Source: Nocardioides aromaticivorans (lineage in GTDB: Bacteria; Actinomycetota; Actinomycetes; Propionibacteriales; Nocardioidaceae). Taken from it: DNA of 64,000 bases. The stretch is taken from NCBI RefSeq assembly GCF_013408525.1, contig NZ_JACBZM010000001.1:4661001-4725000 (forward strand). The letters run 5' to 3'. Both the position numbers and the translations under genes were made by a program. Positions 4,754 to 36,213 of the stretch are shown piece after piece. How positions within the stretch are numbered: position 1 is the first letter of the stretch; each line of letters opens with the position of its first letter. The notes beneath the pieces were generated by a model that had not been told where the DNA came from, searched no databases, and worked only from the letters and a program-made list of their open reading frames with translations.

Positions 4754-7285
4754 TCACGACCAGGCGCGCACGTAGTCCACCGTCATCGTGGCCGGCAGGG
4801 GCGTCCCGTCGACCAGCGTGTTGCCGGTCTGCGAGCCGAGGGCCTGGGTCAGCGCCATGATGTAGCGCTTCTTGAACGCGTCGTTGCCGGAGGTGTTCAC
4901 CAGGCAGGACCGCCCGTTCACGAAGACCTCGACCCGCTCGGGTGACCACTCGAGGGTGTAGGTGTTGAACTCGCCGCGGGGTGCGGTGCAGCTCCACGTC
5001 GTGTTGGCGTCGCTGCCGGTGAGGATCCCGCCGACCGTGTCGAGGGCGGTGTGCAGGTAGGGCACGACGAGGTCGGCGAACTTCGAGTAGGTCTCGGCGA
5101 TGTCGATCTCACCGTTGGCCGGCCACGCCTGCTGGCCCTCGGGGTAGCGGTCGTCGGGCCACAGCCAGAAGGCCTCGTGCAGGCCGGGGCTCGTCGTCGC
5201 GGTGGTCTTCACCCGCGCCTCGAAGCGGCCGTACTGCTGCGACCACCGGTGGGCCGTCGTGACCATGCCGGAGGTGTACGGCGTCACCAGGCCGCCCTGG
5301 CCCTCGCAGGCCCGCGGCTCGCCCTTGCGGACCGTCAGGTGCAGCGCGCCGTCGGACACGGCGACGTTGTCGGGCGAGTCGACGTAGCAGGCGACGCTGT
5401 CCTCGTGGCCGCTGGCGAAGATGGTCTGCACGTTCCACTTCGCCCGGTCGAGCGTCGTCCCGACGAAGTCGTCGGCGAAGGTGCAGGTCCACGGCGTGCC
5501 GTCCGCCTTGAGGACCGTCTCGCCGCAGGCTCCCGCCGCGGGCACCGGGCTGGTGTCGACCGACCAGGTGGCGGTGGCGGTGCTCGCCTGCTGCGTCGCG
5601 CTCGGGCGGTAGCGGACCTTGACCCCGAGGGCCCCGCCCACGCGGCTGCCGAGGGCGACCGTCGTACGACCGTCGGTCAGCGTGTGGGTGGTCTGCGCCC
5701 GGCCGTCGACCCAGAGGTCCACCGGGTTGGTGGTCGCGCTCCCGTTCGCGGCGACGACCTTGATCGTCGCCGTGCCGTCGGGCATCACGCTCAGGGTGGT
5801 CGTCGTCGCCACCTGGTCGGCCGTCGTGACCGACCACGGCAGGCTCGCTTGGCTCGCGCCGCTGGTGCTGCTCGGGCGGTAGCGGACGGTGACCCGGTGG
5901 TCGCCGCCCGGCTGGGGCCCGAGGTCGAAGGTCGCCTGGCCGTTCGTCAGGGTGTACGCCCGCTGCCACGTGCTGTCGATCCACAGGTCGACGGGGTTGG
6001 CGAGCGACGCGGACGCGCCCCCGTCGGCGGTGACCTTGATGGTCCCGGTGCCGTCGGCGCTGAGGTCCAGGGTGGTCGTCGTGGGCACCTGCACCGTGCC
6101 CGGCGCCGTCCACATCAGCGACGCCTGGCTGGCTCCGGTCGTGGTGCTCGGTCGGTAGCGCACGGTGATCCGGTGGTCACCGAGTGCCTGGGCGCCGAGG
6201 TTGACGGCCGCCTGCCCGTTGGTGAGCGTGTACGCCTTCTGCCAGGTGCTGTCGACCCACAGGTCGACCGGGTTCGAAGGCGTCGGGCCGCTGGCGGCCG
6301 TCACCTTGATCGTGCCCGAGCCGTCGGCGTTGAGCTGGAGCGTGGTGGTCGTGGGGACCTGCACGGTGCCGGGCGCGGTCCACGGGACGGTCATCTGGCT
6401 GGTGCCGCTGGTGGTGCTGGGCCGGTAGCGCACGGTGACCTTGTGGTCGCCCGCGGTCTGGGTGCCCAGGTTGACCGCGGCCTGGCCGTTGGTCAGCGTG
6501 TACGCCTTCTGCCAGGTGCTGTCGACCCACAGGTCGACCGGGTTCGAGGGCGTCGGGCCGCTGGCCGCGGTCACCTTGATCGTGCCGGTGCCGTCGGCGT
6601 TGAGCTGGAGCGTGGTGGTCGTGGGGACCTGCACGGTGCCGGGGGCGGTCCACGGAACGGTGACCTGGCTGGCCCCGCTGGTGCTGCTCGGACGGTGCCG
6701 GACGGTGACCTTGTGGTCGCCCGCGGTCTGGGTGCCCAGGTTGACCGCGGCCTGGCCGTTGGTCAGCGTGTACGCCTTCTGCCAGGTGCTGTCGACCCAC
6801 AGGTCGACCGGGTTCGAGGGCGTCGGTCCGCTGGCCGCGGTCACCTTGATCGTGCCCGTGCCGTCGGCGTTGAGCTGCAGCGTCGTGGTGGTCGGGACCT
6901 GCACCGTCCCCGGTGCCGTCCACATGATCGACGCCTGGCTGGCCGCGTGGGTCGCGCTGTTGCGGTAGCGGACGGTGATCCGGTGGTCACCGGGCGTCTG
7001 CGCCCCGACGTCGATCGCGGCCCGGCCATCGGCGAGCGTGAACGTCTGCACCCAGGTGGTGTCGACCCACAGGTCGACCGGGTTCACCGGTGCCGAGCCG
7101 TCAGCGGCGACGACCCGGACCGTCCCGGTGCCGTCGGCGTTCATCGTCAGCGTCGTCGTGGTGGCCACCGGGTCGACGGCAACAGCCGGTCCCGAACCGG
7201 CCAACCCGGCAACGACGGTCAACAGCCCCACGACGACGACGGCCGAACGGCCAAGCGATCGAACCCGAGCTCGCACGTGTTCCAC
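4754..7285 (-). CDS. Secreted GH16 endo-beta-glucanase-like protein with six Ig-like repeats
   Basis: The protein has 843 residues with this start. It begins with a signal peptide (RARVRSLGR, then VVVVGLLTVVAGLAG, AVA). Residues ~40-581 are six ~90-residue repeats, each opening with V(A/P)TTTTL and containing NPVDLW(V/I)D and a GDH..TVRYR strand; they resemble bacterial Ig-like (Big) domains that act as spacers or binders. Residues ~582-843 form a GH16 domain with the catalytic EIDIAE (E726, D728, E731) and FWLWPDD, FNTYTLEWSP nearby. This fits laminarinase-type beta-1,3-glucanases. GTG 7285 has a strong upstream GGGAGGGGGAG; an in-frame GTG at 7312 with a leaderless-type -10 box is the alternative. 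Confidence 0.85.
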   Translation of the reverse strand: MEHVRARVRSLGRSAVVVVGLLTVVAGLAGSGPAVAVDPVATTTTLTMNADGTGTVRVVAADGSAPVNPVDLWVDTTWVQTFTLADGRAAIDVGAQTPGDHRITVRYRNSATHAASQASIMWTAPGTVQVPTTTTLQLNADGTGTIKVTAASGPTPSNPVDLWVDSTWQKAYTLTNGQAAVNLGTQTAGDHKVTVRHRPSSTSGASQVTVPWTAPGTVQVPTTTTLQLNADGTGTIKVTAASGPTPSNPVDLWVDSTWQKAYTLTNGQAAVNLGTQTAGDHKVTVRYRPSTTSGTSQMTVPWTAPGTVQVPTTTTLQLNADGSGTIKVTAASGPTPSNPVDLWVDSTWQKAYTLTNGQAAVNLGAQALGDHRITVRYRPSTTTGASQASLMWTAPGTVQVPTTTTLDLSADGTGTIKVTADGGASASLANPVDLWIDSTWQRAYTLTNGQATFDLGPQPGGDHRVTVRYRPSSTSGASQASLPWSVTTADQVATTTTLSVMPDGTATIKVVAANGSATTNPVDLWVDGRAQTTHTLTDGRTTVALGSRVGGALGVKVRYRPSATQQASTATATWSVDTSPVPAAGACGETVLKADGTPWTCTFADDFVGTTLDRAKWNVQTIFASGHEDSVACYVDSPDNVAVSDGALHLTVRKGEPRACEGQGGLVTPYTSGMVTTAHRWSQQYGRFEARVKTTATTSPGLHEAFWLWPDDRYPEGQQAWPANGEIDIAETYSKFADLVVPYLHTALDTVGGILTGSDANTTWSCTAPRGEFNTYTLEWSPERVEVFVNGRSCLVNTSGNDAFKKRYIMALTQALGSQTGNTLVDGTPLPATMTVDYVRAWS
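5543..7168 (-). repeat. Six in-frame ~270-bp tandem repeats inside the GH16 gene
   Basis: Six units of 90-92 codons are arranged head to tail. Units 2-4 (6089-6898) differ by only a few codons and are almost identical at DNA level, while units 1, 5 and 6 are diverged. This suggests recent duplication within the gene. Confidence 0.85.
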
Positions 7286-33494: not shown

Positions 33495-33821
33495 ATGTCC
33501 TCCTCGCGTCACGGCCGCTCGCACGAGCCCGACGCGATCCGGATCACCACGGCGGGCGACAGCCCGGAGGCCGACATCGCCCGGCGGCAGAAGAAGTACG
33601 CCATCGCGATGGGCATCCGCACCCTGTGCTTCATCGGCGCAGCCATCACCGGCGCAGCCGGCCTGCACTGGGTCTGGCCCTTCCTCATCCTCGCCTCGCT
33701 GTTCCTGCCGTACGTCGCCGTCGTGATGGCCAACGCCAACGACAGCCGCTCCACGGAGCTCCCGCTCACCGGTGGCGGCGACGCGCAGCGCCAGCTCGGA
33801 CCGGGCGGCCATGGAGACTGA
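33495..33821 (+). CDS. DUF3099-family membrane protein
   Basis: A 108-residue actinobacterial protein with two membrane helices (YAIAMGIRTLCFIGAAITGAAGLHWVW and PFLILASLFLPYVAVVMANA) flanked by charged ends. RITTAGDSPEADIARRQKKYAIAMGIRTLCF is the recognised start of the DUF3099 family, whose function is unknown. Its last codons overlap the start of the next gene by 11 bases. Confidence 0.8.
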   Translation: MSSSRHGRSHEPDAIRITTAGDSPEADIARRQKKYAIAMGIRTLCFIGAAITGAAGLHWVWPFLILASLFLPYVAVVMANANDSRSTELPLTGGGDAQRQLGPGGHGD

Positions 33822-34005
33822 GCCCGACTTCTGCTCGGCCAAGGGCTGCCGGGCCGACGCCGTGTGGCAGCTGCACTGGAACAACCCCAAGCTGCACACC
33901 CCCGAGCGCCGCAAGATCTGGTTGGCCTGCGACGACCACCGCGAGTCCCTCGAGCACTTCCTCGGCGCCCGCGGCTTCCTCAAGGACACCCTCCCCCACC
34001 CCTGA
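33811..34005 (+). CDS. Small Cys-containing actinobacterial protein
   Basis: A 64-residue protein. FCSAKGCRADAVWQLHWNNPKLHTPERRKIWLACDDHRESLEHFLGARGF places three Cys and several His so that a small zinc site (CxxxxC ... CxxH) is plausible. Similar proteins are found after DUF3099 genes in other actinobacteria and carry uninformative names. The ATG lies inside the preceding gene, suggesting coupling. The first 21-nt repeat unit begins at its stop codon. Confidence 0.65.
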   Translation: METEPDFCSAKGCRADAVWQLHWNNPKLHTPERRKIWLACDDHRESLEHFLGARGFLKDTLPHP

Positions 34006-34108
34006 CTTGCCGCTCTGCCGGGTCGAGTTGCCGGTCCGGCGCGGCGAGTTGCCGATCTGGCGCGTCGAGTTGCCGGTCTGCCCGACCGACTCGCCAATCT
34101 GCTCCGAC
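34004..34108 (+). repeat. Array of five 21-nt tandem repeats (left array)
   Basis: Five contiguous units start at 34004, 34025, 34046, 34067 and 34088, each opening with GA(G/C)T(T/C)GCC followed by a G-rich variable half. The best units begin GAGTTGCCGGTC. A partial sixth unit (GAGTCGGCC) follows. The array starts within the stop codon of the upstream gene. Confidence 0.75.
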
Positions 34109-34233
34109 GAGTCGGCCCCATGAGTCACTCCATCAGCCACCGCCCGCCCACAGGTCGATCCGTCGCAACGACCATCCACAGCCATGAAGGCACCCCCGTC
34201 GCTCACCGACCGGAGTGACGACAGTCGTGCAGC

Positions 34234-35154
34234 ATGGAGATCAACGACTTGCCGGTCGAGCCCTTCCTGATCCGCAATGCAGAAGCGCTCGGGCTCACCC
34301 GGCGGCAGGTTCAACTGGCGACGGAGGACGGTCTGCTGGTCCGGGCCGCCAACGGCGTCTACCGACGCTCAGACATCGCCGACACGATCCAGGCACGTGC
34401 ACTGGTCGTTGCTTGCGCGGTGGCAGCTCACCACGTGGCGGTGGACCGGACCGCAGCTTGGCTCCATGGGGTGGAGATGCTGACCCTCGACGAGCAGGTG
34501 CTGCCGCCGCCGATCGAGAGCTGCGCGCTGCGCGGGCGTCGCCCGTCGCGCCGACCGGAACTGGACGGCCGAACGCGCGATCTCGCCCCGGATGACGTCA
34601 TGGTCGTCGACGGTGTCCGGGTCACCACGCCGCTACGAACCGCTCTTGACCTCGGCTGTCACCTCCGTCAGCGAGAGGCCTTCGCAGCGATGTGTCTTCT
34701 GGCCCGAGGGCACGCCTTCAATTCCCGGGACCTCGTCCACGAGCTCCCGAGATTCCGTGGGCGTCGCGGCGTGATCCAGCTGCGCGCCCTCGCACCACTG
34801 GTGGATCCGCGCGTCGAGTCGCACCGGGAGGCGTGGACCCTGCTGGAGATCGTCGGCTCGGGCTTGCCGGCCCCGCAACCCCAGTGGTGGGTCGAGATCG
34901 ACGGTGTTCCGACCTATCGCCTGGACTTCGCCTATCCCCTCGCCCGGGTATGCGTCGAGTACGACGGCTTCGAGCACCATCTGCGAACGCCGGAGCAACG
35001 CGAGCACGACGAGAGGCGACGCCGCTGGCTGCACGAGGCGGGGTGGACGGTCATCGTGATCCGCCGCGGTGACTTCGCCGACGGCGCCTCGGCGCGCTGG
35101 ACCCGTGAGCTGCGAGAGGCCCTCACGCCGTCGTACACGAACCGGCGCTGGTGA
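34234..35154 (+). CDS. AbiEi-like HTH protein fused to DUF559/Vsr-like nuclease domain
   Basis: A 306-residue two-part protein. Residues 1-150 match the AbiEi antitoxin-like winged-helix domain (LGLTRRQVQLATEDGLLVRAANGVYRRSDI, HHVAVDRTAAWLHGVEML, TTPLRTALDLGCHL). Residues ~190-306 form a restriction-endonuclease-like domain of DUF559/Vsr type with RLDFAYPLARVCVEYDGFEHH and RRRRWLHEAGWTVIVIRRGDF, placing Asp and Glu as in PD-(D/E)xK nucleases. Orphan genes like this are widespread in actinobacteria without an AbiEii toxin; none is adjacent here. It is bracketed by 21-nt repeats in opposite orientation and appears less GC-biased at third positions than its neighbours. Confidence 0.8.
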   Translation: MEINDLPVEPFLIRNAEALGLTRRQVQLATEDGLLVRAANGVYRRSDIADTIQARALVVACAVAAHHVAVDRTAAWLHGVEMLTLDEQVLPPPIESCALRGRRPSRRPELDGRTRDLAPDDVMVVDGVRVTTPLRTALDLGCHLRQREAFAAMCLLARGHAFNSRDLVHELPRFRGRRGVIQLRALAPLVDPRVESHREAWTLLEIVGSGLPAPQPQWWVEIDGVPTYRLDFAYPLARVCVEYDGFEHHLRTPEQREHDERRRRWLHEAGWTVIVIRRGDFADGASARWTRELREALTPSYTNRRW

Positions 35155-35210
35155 CAGCTCGCACCGCGGAACCGGCAACTCGCGCCGCCAAAGTGGCAAC
35201 TCGGCGGAGG
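35152..35210 (-). repeat. Right array of the 21-nt repeat, inverted
   Basis: GGCAACTC recurs ending at 35181 and 35202, and GACAGCTC ends at 35160, an exact 21-base period. On the minus strand these read GAGTTGCC, the opening of the left-array units. The outermost unit overlaps the stop codon of the AbiEi-like gene. Confidence 0.65.
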
Positions 35211-35220
35211 AGGGGGAGCG

Positions 35221-36213
35221 TCAGCCGCCGATGGCGGACATGGGGCGGTCGGGCTGGAGGAAGGTGGGGTCGTCGATGCCGTGACCCGGGAGCTTGCCCC
35301 ACATGGCAGTGCGCCAGCGCTCGGCGAGCTCGGCGTCGGTGGCACCGGCGCGCAGGGCGAGGCGGAGGTCGGACTCGGAGCGGGCGAAGAGGCAATTGCG
35401 GACCTGGCCGTCGGCGGTGAGCCGGACCCGGTCGCAGTCGCCGCAGAACGGGCGGGTCACCGAGGCGATCACGCCGACCGTGGCCGGGCCGCCGTCGACG
35501 GTGAACAGCTCGGCGGGAGCGCTCCCCCGCGGCTCGGAGGCGGTCGACAGCGTGAAGGCGGCCGACAGCGAGGCCAGGATCTCGTCGGCGGTGACCATCT
35601 CGGCGCGGCTCCACCCGTGCTGGGCGTCGAGCGGCATCTGCTCGATGAAGCGGAGCTGGTAGCCGCGCTCGATGCACCACGCGAGCAGCTCGGGCGCCTG
35701 GTCGTCGTTGACGCCACGCAGGAGCACGGCGTTGACCTTGACCGGGCCGAGCCCGGCGGCCTCCGCGGCGGCCAGCCCGGCCACCACGTCGTCGAGGCGA
35801 TCGCGTCGGGTGATCTCGTGGAAGGAGTCGCGGCGCACCGTGTCGAGGCTGACGTTGACCCGGTTGAGCCCCGCGTCGGCGAGGGCGCCGGCCGTGCGGG
35901 CGAGGCCGAGCGCGTTGGTGGTGATCGACATCTCGACGTCGGCGTCGCGCTCGCGCACGCGGCGGACGATGTCGACGAGCCCGCGGCGCACGAGCGGCTC
36001 GCCGCCGGTGAACCGGATCTCCTCGACGCCGAGCTCGCCCACGGCGATCCCGATCAGCCGGACGACCTCGTCATCGGTGAGCTGGTCGTCGGTGGGCAGC
36101 CAGTCGAGGCCCTCGGCCGGCATGCAGTAGGTGCAGCGCAGGTTGCAACGATCGGTCAGCGAGACCCTCAGGTCCGTCGCCACCCGTCCGTACTGGTCGA
36201 TCAAGGGCTGCAC
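35221..36213 (-). CDS. moaA: GTP 3',8-cyclase (molybdenum cofactor biosynthesis)
   Basis: A 330-residue radical-SAM enzyme that converts GTP to 3',8-cyclo-dihydro-GTP, the first step of molybdopterin synthesis. The N-terminal cluster motif is CNLRCTYC within DLRVSLTDRCNLRCTYCMPAEGLDWLP. The SAM-binding EIRFTGGEPLVRRGL and the C-terminal cluster PFCGDCDRVRLTADGQVRNCLF are present, and the protein ends with the conserved GG needed for activity. No other moa genes are adjacent. GTG 36213 follows a TAGGAT box by 6 nt. Confidence 0.95.
   Translation of the reverse strand: MQPLIDQYGRVATDLRVSLTDRCNLRCTYCMPAEGLDWLPTDDQLTDDEVVRLIGIAVGELGVEEIRFTGGEPLVRRGLVDIVRRVRERDADVEMSITTNALGLARTAGALADAGLNRVNVSLDTVRRDSFHEITRRDRLDDVVAGLAAAEAAGLGPVKVNAVLLRGVNDDQAPELLAWCIERGYQLRFIEQMPLDAQHGWSRAEMVTADEILASLSAAFTLSTASEPRGSAPAELFTVDGGPATVGVIASVTRPFCGDCDRVRLTADGQVRNCLFARSESDLRLALRAGATDAELAERWRTAMWGKLPGHGIDDPTFLQPDRPMSAIGG

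Follow-up and report, generated by a model that had tools for sequence, protein, structure and literature searches.

The question raised by this locus of Nocardioides aromaticivorans is what ties a nuclease gene to the short repeats around it: the gene, for a 306-amino acid protein, lies between two arrays of 21-nt units in inverted orientation, and a sequence-only reading had offered three options: a regulatory array, sites that the encoded protein binds and cuts, or the edges of a small mobile or selfish cassette. Here, we follow the arrays and the gene in the window, i.e., the whole stretch of 64,000 nucleotides that was analyzed, in the rest of its 5.26-Mb genome, and in relatives. The nuclease gene (34234..35154, + strand) has on its left five units of the form GASTTGCC N13 (34004..34108, + strand), with the boxes oriented to the gene, and on its right three inverted units (35140..35202, − strand; approximate coordinates); the common unit reads YGASTTGCC at its start. 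In both arrays the gene-side unit is the degenerate one, i.e., the fifth on the left (GACTCGCC) and the third on the right (GAGCTGTC), the latter overlapping the stop codon of the nuclease gene (35152-35154). A search of the whole window for box pairs at 21-nt spacing with up to three mismatches gave seven matches, six in the bracket and one elsewhere that sits at three mismatches, vs 0.63 on average, and never more than 3, in 100 shuffled windows, which confirms the inverted arrays of five and three units. The claim that both arrays start at a stop codon holds on the left, where the first box overlaps the TGA (34003-34005) of a 64-amino acid gene, and not on the right, where the array begins about 18 nt past the stop codon of moaA (35221-35223).

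The 64-amino acid gene ("up", 33811..34005, + strand) is the left neighbor of the site, has no Pfam match, and is the conserved left flank in relatives; moaA (35221..36213, − strand), the right neighbor, is convergent with it. The bracket in the window encloses the nuclease as its sole gene, with no transposase. The gene had been said to lack a toxin partner, and AbiEii/DUF1814 is indeed absent among the five neighbor genes tested, which Pfam assigns to DUF3099, moaA, SURF1, and SDR in addition to the 64-amino acid gene without a match. Rfam gave nothing above the gathering score in window positions 33700-35500; a mir-4891 match was dismissed (26.3 vs a gathering score of 100). Far from the bracket, at positions 5846-7085, a 270-nt unit is repeated in tandem 4.6 times (83% matches), possibly inside a coding sequence.

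Pfam and fold prediction agree with the domain content claimed for the protein, i.e., an AbiEi-type N-terminal half and a DUF559/Vsr-type C-terminal half. The former (residues 1-191; 34234..34806, + strand) combines a winged helix with an AbiEi-like second domain and is matched by the PADLOC AbiEi models; the latter (residues 196-299; 34819..35130, + strand) is joined to it in the structure prediction as an I-Bth0305I/Vsr (EDxHD) fold, with E199, D231, E242, H249, and D259 conserved. DUF559, MTES_1575, and AbiEi_4 are the only Pfam matches. AbiEi proteins are described as autorepressors that bind 23-bp inverted repeats in their own promoters (PMC7319586), and an EDxHD homing enzyme is described as dimerizing on nearly 60 bp (PMC3943268). 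In size, the 23-bp repeats are close to one 21-nt unit, and the site of nearly 60 bp is near the span of the 44-nt core found where two arrays face each other.

Such facing arrays are dispersed in the same genome. With at most one mismatch, the 21-nt-spaced pair GAGTTGCC has 41 matches vs 2 for the reversed pattern, and exact GASTTGCC pairs number 63 vs 0 in the control, four in the bracket and the rest at 15 other places. The pattern is noisy at two mismatches (146 vs 72 reversed), because of which our box counts are taken from the one-mismatch and exact-pair scans. The gene-less places are mostly a plus array facing a minus array, two (L036, L038) being one-armed. The facing boxes are exactly 28 nt apart in 10 of the 14 two-armed elements scored (17, 18, 19, and 136 nt in the others), a set that leaves out L037 and L040 with their variant (GASTTGGC) or mixed box. 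No nuclease homolog was found between the arms, and tblastn at 34 array loci of this genome gave none except for a DUF559 gene whose end lies about 1.5 kb away from the array at 1209804. As to gene context, a rough GC3-based gene call, from which L277 is omitted, puts 33 array places of the two families in this genome (the second is described below) between tandem genes in 18 cases and convergent genes in 12, with none between divergent genes and 3 unresolved; many arrays begin no more than about 20 nt away from a called ORF end.

Across 66 units from 12 of these elements, there is almost no variation in the box GASTTGCC, and good conservation also at positions 11-13 and 19-21. At unit positions 13-21, agreement in the 12 elements is 0.80 between units of one arm, vs 0.576 between opposite arms of the same element and 0.567 between opposite arms of different elements, so the arms seem to grow by local duplication and not to be held complementary. 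By inspection of column counts, the units of the window's family are non-palindromic; one of 10 cores (L046) is a perfect palindrome. The lack of complementarity between the arms points to double-stranded DNA sites, not hairpins, and an RNA hairpin reading was rejected because opposite arms are no more alike within than between elements. A sister box, GAGTTGGC, also at 21-nt spacing, has its own arrays at C1:211225-211337, 1326005-1326270, and 3156790-3157193 (L039, L040, and L037, respectively), which face each other in two of the three places; no bracketed nuclease cognate to it was seen among the DUF559 genes inspected in this genome.

The arrangement recurs around related genes. The family was defined as 80 named loci from a scan with alignment A1, and, since both search motifs fall in the AbiEi-type half, the scan also admits relatives without the nuclease. 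A YGA-anchored periodic box is present on both flanks at 54 of the 80 loci (54 of the 75 with flanks long enough), vs 3/297 in shifted-position controls. In these 75 loci, inverted 9-mer matches between the two flanks average 32.5, whereas direct matches average 5.1 and matches between flanks of different loci 5.5; with 350-nt flanks, the inverted mean is 30.1 at the gene vs 2.2-3.2 at ±1.7/2.0 kb, shifts of ±1.3 kb not being used as controls because they still overlap the arrays and helical repeats rise there. A second draw of 28 loci gave 19 with both arms; eight of the 28 repeat genes of the first draw, and 15 of the 20 new genes have both arms. Overall, both arms are found in 71 of 102 genes, with 55 distinct boxes among the 71.

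The periods of the 71 both-arm loci are 22 (31 loci), 32 (16), 21 (13), 31 (8), 33 (2), and 26 nt (1), i.e., near two or three whole helical turns in 70 of 71, as called by a finder that allowed 21, 22, 26, 31, 32, and 33 only; when the distances between repeated 8-mers are counted without such a restriction, the maxima are at 21, 22, 31, 32, 42, and 44. The sole exception among the 71 is L245, a bracketed relative with 26-nt spacing. Please note that the YGA anchor was chosen after inspection and the "YGA" is therefore partly by construction; when unforced, CGA ranks second of 64 trinucleotides, and the G at position 7, also unforced, is found in 65/75. The boxes are not all different, TGACCGGGCA recurring in several genomes of one clade.

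In a FastTree tree of the family, the two-turn/three-turn state changes 5 times vs 23.3 with shuffled labels; one gene drawn twice (L182/L237) is two-turn and nested in a three-turn clade at the same site. The nuclease clades mostly follow genomic sites, and the gene therefore moves rarely. One site (l7/r7) nests in the clade of another (l2/r2), and the flanking proteins of the two sites show no match. Two loci stand out: the cassette of L172 is inverted relative to its conserved neighbors, as from recombination between inverted arrays or insertion in the opposite direction, and L161 (Marmoricola endophyticus) has left neighbor l4 with right neighbor r2, a possible rearrangement through the arrays. 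Eight full-length proteins that lack the catalytic motif (L193, L199-L205), probably of one clade, have no arrays. Of the four other motif-poor genes (L163, L176, L177, and L198), each of which has a truncation, a frameshift, or an internal stop, three were called both-armed; among the motif-intact genes, the finder called 12 without arrays and 14 with one arm only. A short inverted repeat lies within the units of both L187 and L188, where hairpins may form, as they may at the palindromic core of L046. Two other families of the order, sampled at 20 loci, generally lack helical arrays; long inverted repeats were seen there at L266 (54 nt) and L264 (21 nt). By eye, other AbiEi/DUF559-like genes of the own genome are bracketed by copies of other kinds of repeat, palindromic or inverted (L003 at 4902443, L004 at 3121654, L005 at 200748, and L092 at 157101), and bracketing by a cognate repeat may extend beyond helical arrays.

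The boxes differ between genes and between genomes. Among 59 genomes of the genus, exact GASTTGCC pairs number 63 in the own genome, 3 in G004, 1 each in G006 and G034, and none in 55, i.e., five pairs in 3 of the 58 other genomes, and the box is nearly private to its genome. Of seven genomes searched for GASTCGTC pairs, G014 (11) and G034 (17) have them and the other five do not; of seven searched for GASTWGGG pairs, G035 (5) alone has them. Both patterns were scanned at 21-nt spacing only, and in the brackets of G014 and G020 the units lie 22 nt apart. The bracket of G020 has the box GACTTGGG, yet no GASTWGGG pair occurs there at 21-nt spacing. The orthologous nucleases of the relatives go with boxes other than GASTTGCC. 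The own genome has a second nuclease (3131707; 43% identity) with four CGAAGTGTG units on each side, spaced 22 nt, and this box has 76 pair matches at up to two mismatches (six in its own bracket) vs 1 in the control; here, too, most arrays face each other, and the two-armed calls (n = 13) have 29-32 nt between boxes in eight cases and 7, 11, 21, 40, and 929 nt in the others, the 929-nt gap (L290) being spurious since one of its boxes is a chance match.

In three genomes, two nucleases with arrays on both sides differ in their boxes (L131/L166 in strain Root682, L156/L174 in BIN47, and L056/L002). Boxes differ by 1.9 of 7 bases at protein distances below 0.3 and by about 4.1 above 0.5; the Mantel correlation of box with protein distance is modest and uncontrolled for species (r 0.24, 0/2000), and it is 0.29 after removal of the doubtful rows L176 and L177. 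When parts of the protein are compared with the box, r is 0.25, 0.29, and 0.25, and the winged helix fits no better than the other parts. This correlation would fit recognition or common descent alike.

The same gene junctions were compared across species. A moaA search of the 59 genomes gave 63 matches, and 30 loci were read: five are filled (the window included), 18 bare, 4 occupied by another gene, and 3 uninformative. The nucleases of the four filled relatives have 57-61% identity, and each has its own inverted units of 21-22 nt by eye, L065 being the weakest. At the 18 bare loci the neighbors lie 2-202 nt apart (at most 84 nt in 16), with no own-box array by search and no phased array by eye. 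At the moaA site, gene and arrays are present or absent together, and an empty site that keeps both arrays was not seen in the 30 loci. The gene that replaces the nuclease in L074, L079, L081, and L082 is, we assume, a nucleoside hydrolase; three of these four loci carry a convergent GAGGCGTC array behind it.

Two sites of gene-less arrays were compared in the same way. At 3710509, which holds a GASTTGCC element in the own genome, 18 of the relatives' 29 loci are readable; five of the 18 are bare, with 15-26 nt and no array, while phased facing arrays of other boxes were seen by eye in L293 (GAGTCGTC), L294 (CGAAGTGTC), and L295 (CGAAGTGTG), and the remaining readable loci have palindromes, other inverted repeats, or unrelated sequence, so that different repeat families occupy one junction across species. 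At another gene-less array site, flanked by a gene that we take to be folP, 25 of 29 relatives' loci are readable: 19 have 26-136 nt and no array by eye, five have 506-1022 nt between the neighbors, and one has palindromes. Judged from these readable junctions, the gene-less arrays are lineage-specific. No target-site duplication was noticed by eye at the junctions read (moaA, 3710509, and folP sites).

Two of the earlier proposals, cassette edges and the protein's own sites, thus gain strong comparative support from the joint presence or absence of gene and arrays and from the inverted arrays at most related genes. A repeat that is widespread near unrelated genes with no link to AbiEi/DUF559 genes would be a different matter; the first half of this is what we found in the own genome, and the second half is not, the array-nuclease link being systematic, because of which the dispersed copies look like gene-less members of the family. 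The explanation that we favor, with about an even chance of being right, is a nuclease with its own dispersed target arrays, which would bind the units and cut at facing arrays, and whose copies would be spread by repair. The winged-helix half would read the box, one monomer per unit, with the monomers aligned on one face of the DNA, and facing arrays would bring the nuclease halves together over the core; a nick or cut is predicted where two arrays face. Repair would then copy arrays, and occasionally the cassette as a whole, into intergenic sites or from one such site to another, so that breakage and repair would drive the spread and also keep the copies of one box alike. The nuclease gene sits between facing arrays, whereas in the gene-less copies the facing arrays are close together; since about 1 kb separates the facing arrays of the bracket, the gene would interrupt its own site and might thereby protect it, as homing genes do.

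The main problem for this explanation is the cost that unrestrained cutting at facing arrays would have. Because 15 array places coexist with an apparently intact nuclease, there must be some control of its activity, or a restriction of it to nicking or to special DNA. In its widest form, for which we would put the chances somewhat short of even, the locus would be a selfish genome-shaping element of a new class, in which a Vsr/EDxHD nuclease guided by an AbiEi-type reader resides in its own dispersed, helically phased target arrays. Drift of the reader's specificity would rewrite all copies of the box in the genome, leading to private repeat alphabets of species and of nuclease paralogs at the same gene junctions.

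Several other explanations compete with a nuclease that targets its own arrays. The arrays may be the protein's sites for regulation or anchoring only, in which case the AbiEi half would serve as a repressor of its own gene and occupy the dispersed arrays near gene ends, and the nuclease half would act elsewhere, e.g., on foreign DNA. The autorepression known from AbiEi-family antitoxins, the PADLOC matches of the N-terminal half, and the position of the left array upstream of the gene all suit this reading; autorepression, however, needs no array behind the stop codon, yet the right array is inverted and matched. With no divergent place among the 33 dispersed ones (by the same rough gene call), and with the arrays gone where the nuclease motif is lost though the leader motif described below is kept (8/8, probably one clade), we regard regulation alone as unlikely. 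A distinctly improbable reading is that the arrays belong to an unrelated host factor, e.g., a chromosome organizer or a terminator protein, and that the nuclease gene settles in tolerant intergenic places. Gene-less array places do outnumber the bracketed gene 15 to 1, and at one convergent site the exact position of the arrays is taken, in other species, by different arrays or by palindromes. One factor, however, does not predict three genomes with two both-arm nucleases of different boxes, and the two dispersed families of the own genome match its two array-bracketed genes.

That many arrays begin within about 20 nt of a called ORF end and that facing boxes are complementary might suggest transcription terminators or structured RNA between convergent genes. 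This is very hard to reconcile with arms that are not kept able to pair, with a helical spacing that would be meaningless for RNA, with the five relatives that end such a gene pair with 15-26 nt and no array, and with the negative Rfam search of 33700-35500, and we give it very little probability. We are just as skeptical that the repeats are the termini of a conventional transposon or MITE that a different transposase mobilizes, with the nuclease as a passenger: the window's bracket holds the nuclease alone, the ends are arrays of variable length, and no duplicated target was noticed at the junctions read by eye, against which stand the inverted ends, the dispersed gene-less copies, the presence and absence in relatives, and the one flipped cassette (L172).

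Among nuclease genes associated with dispersed repeats in bacteria, those of the REP/RAYT system are the best known. The locus resembles this system in that a single nuclease gene lies between two inverted copies of a repeat dispersed in intergenic DNA and in that repeat and gene vary together; RAYT genes are always flanked by inverted REPs, with which they seem to coevolve (PMC2817692). It differs in its enzyme, which has AbiEi and Vsr/EDxHD folds and not the IS200/IS605-type tyrosine (Transposase_17) one, and in its repeat, which in the window's family is non-palindromic and forms tandem arrays at whole helical turns with arms that are not complementary. The copy number also differs, with 15 places plus the bracket here vs the more than 100 copies per genome that are usual for REPs. 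We place the locus outside REP/RAYT because the enzyme is the wrong one and the window's family has no hairpin repeat.

With EDxHD homing endonucleases (I-Bth0305I) the protein shares the catalytic fold with conserved acidic and histidine residues; unlike them, it has in the window no intron, intein, or coding target, the presumed target being an intergenic array family, and gene-less copies persist beside the gene. With the AbiE type IV toxin-antitoxin it shares the AbiEi-fold antitoxin half, and it falls outside AbiE because there is no toxin; the AbiEii/DUF1814 gene does not adjoin, the half is fused to a nuclease, and the repeats extend beyond the promoter. DUF559 Vsr-like endonucleases such as Caulobacter VsrA have the same domain and a Vsr-like fold, and in the accessible part of the source VsrA is functionally linked to a cytosine methyltransferase, with no mention of repeat arrays (PMC12907096). 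No description of such arrays or of repeat-bracketed DUF559/AbiEi genes was found in the literature covered, which includes few subscription papers and was available in part.

This would be a new kind of repeat-and-nuclease system which, by its architecture, would work like REP/RAYT. If true, Actinobacteria would have invented such a system independently, with another enzyme, another DNA signal, and a readable code, i.e., a box of about ten bases that recurs after two or three helical turns in nearly every case. The 71 both-arm loci with their 55 boxes form a natural protein-box series in which protein-DNA recognition, concerted repeat evolution, and the birth of intergenic repeats become testable, and genes usually annotated merely as DUF559 or AbiEi would gain a concrete hypothesis.

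The leader of the gene carries a further signal. In 69 of the 80 related genes, the 250 nt that precede the match start contain TCCACAG or its complement, vs 33/1563 control windows, 1/77 downstream, 4/77 further upstream, and 44/1560 shuffled leaders. The motif, whose context is GTYRTCCACAGGC, resembles a DnaA box (TTRTCCACA). It tracks the gene family and not the arrays, being present also where arrays are absent, and it is kept in all eight genes of the motif-less, array-less proteins. In the window, the copy region is 34140-34190, with TCCACAG at 34175..34181 (+ strand) and, upstream of it, a near-match CCCACAGG to the motif TCCACAGG at 34147..34154 (+ strand).
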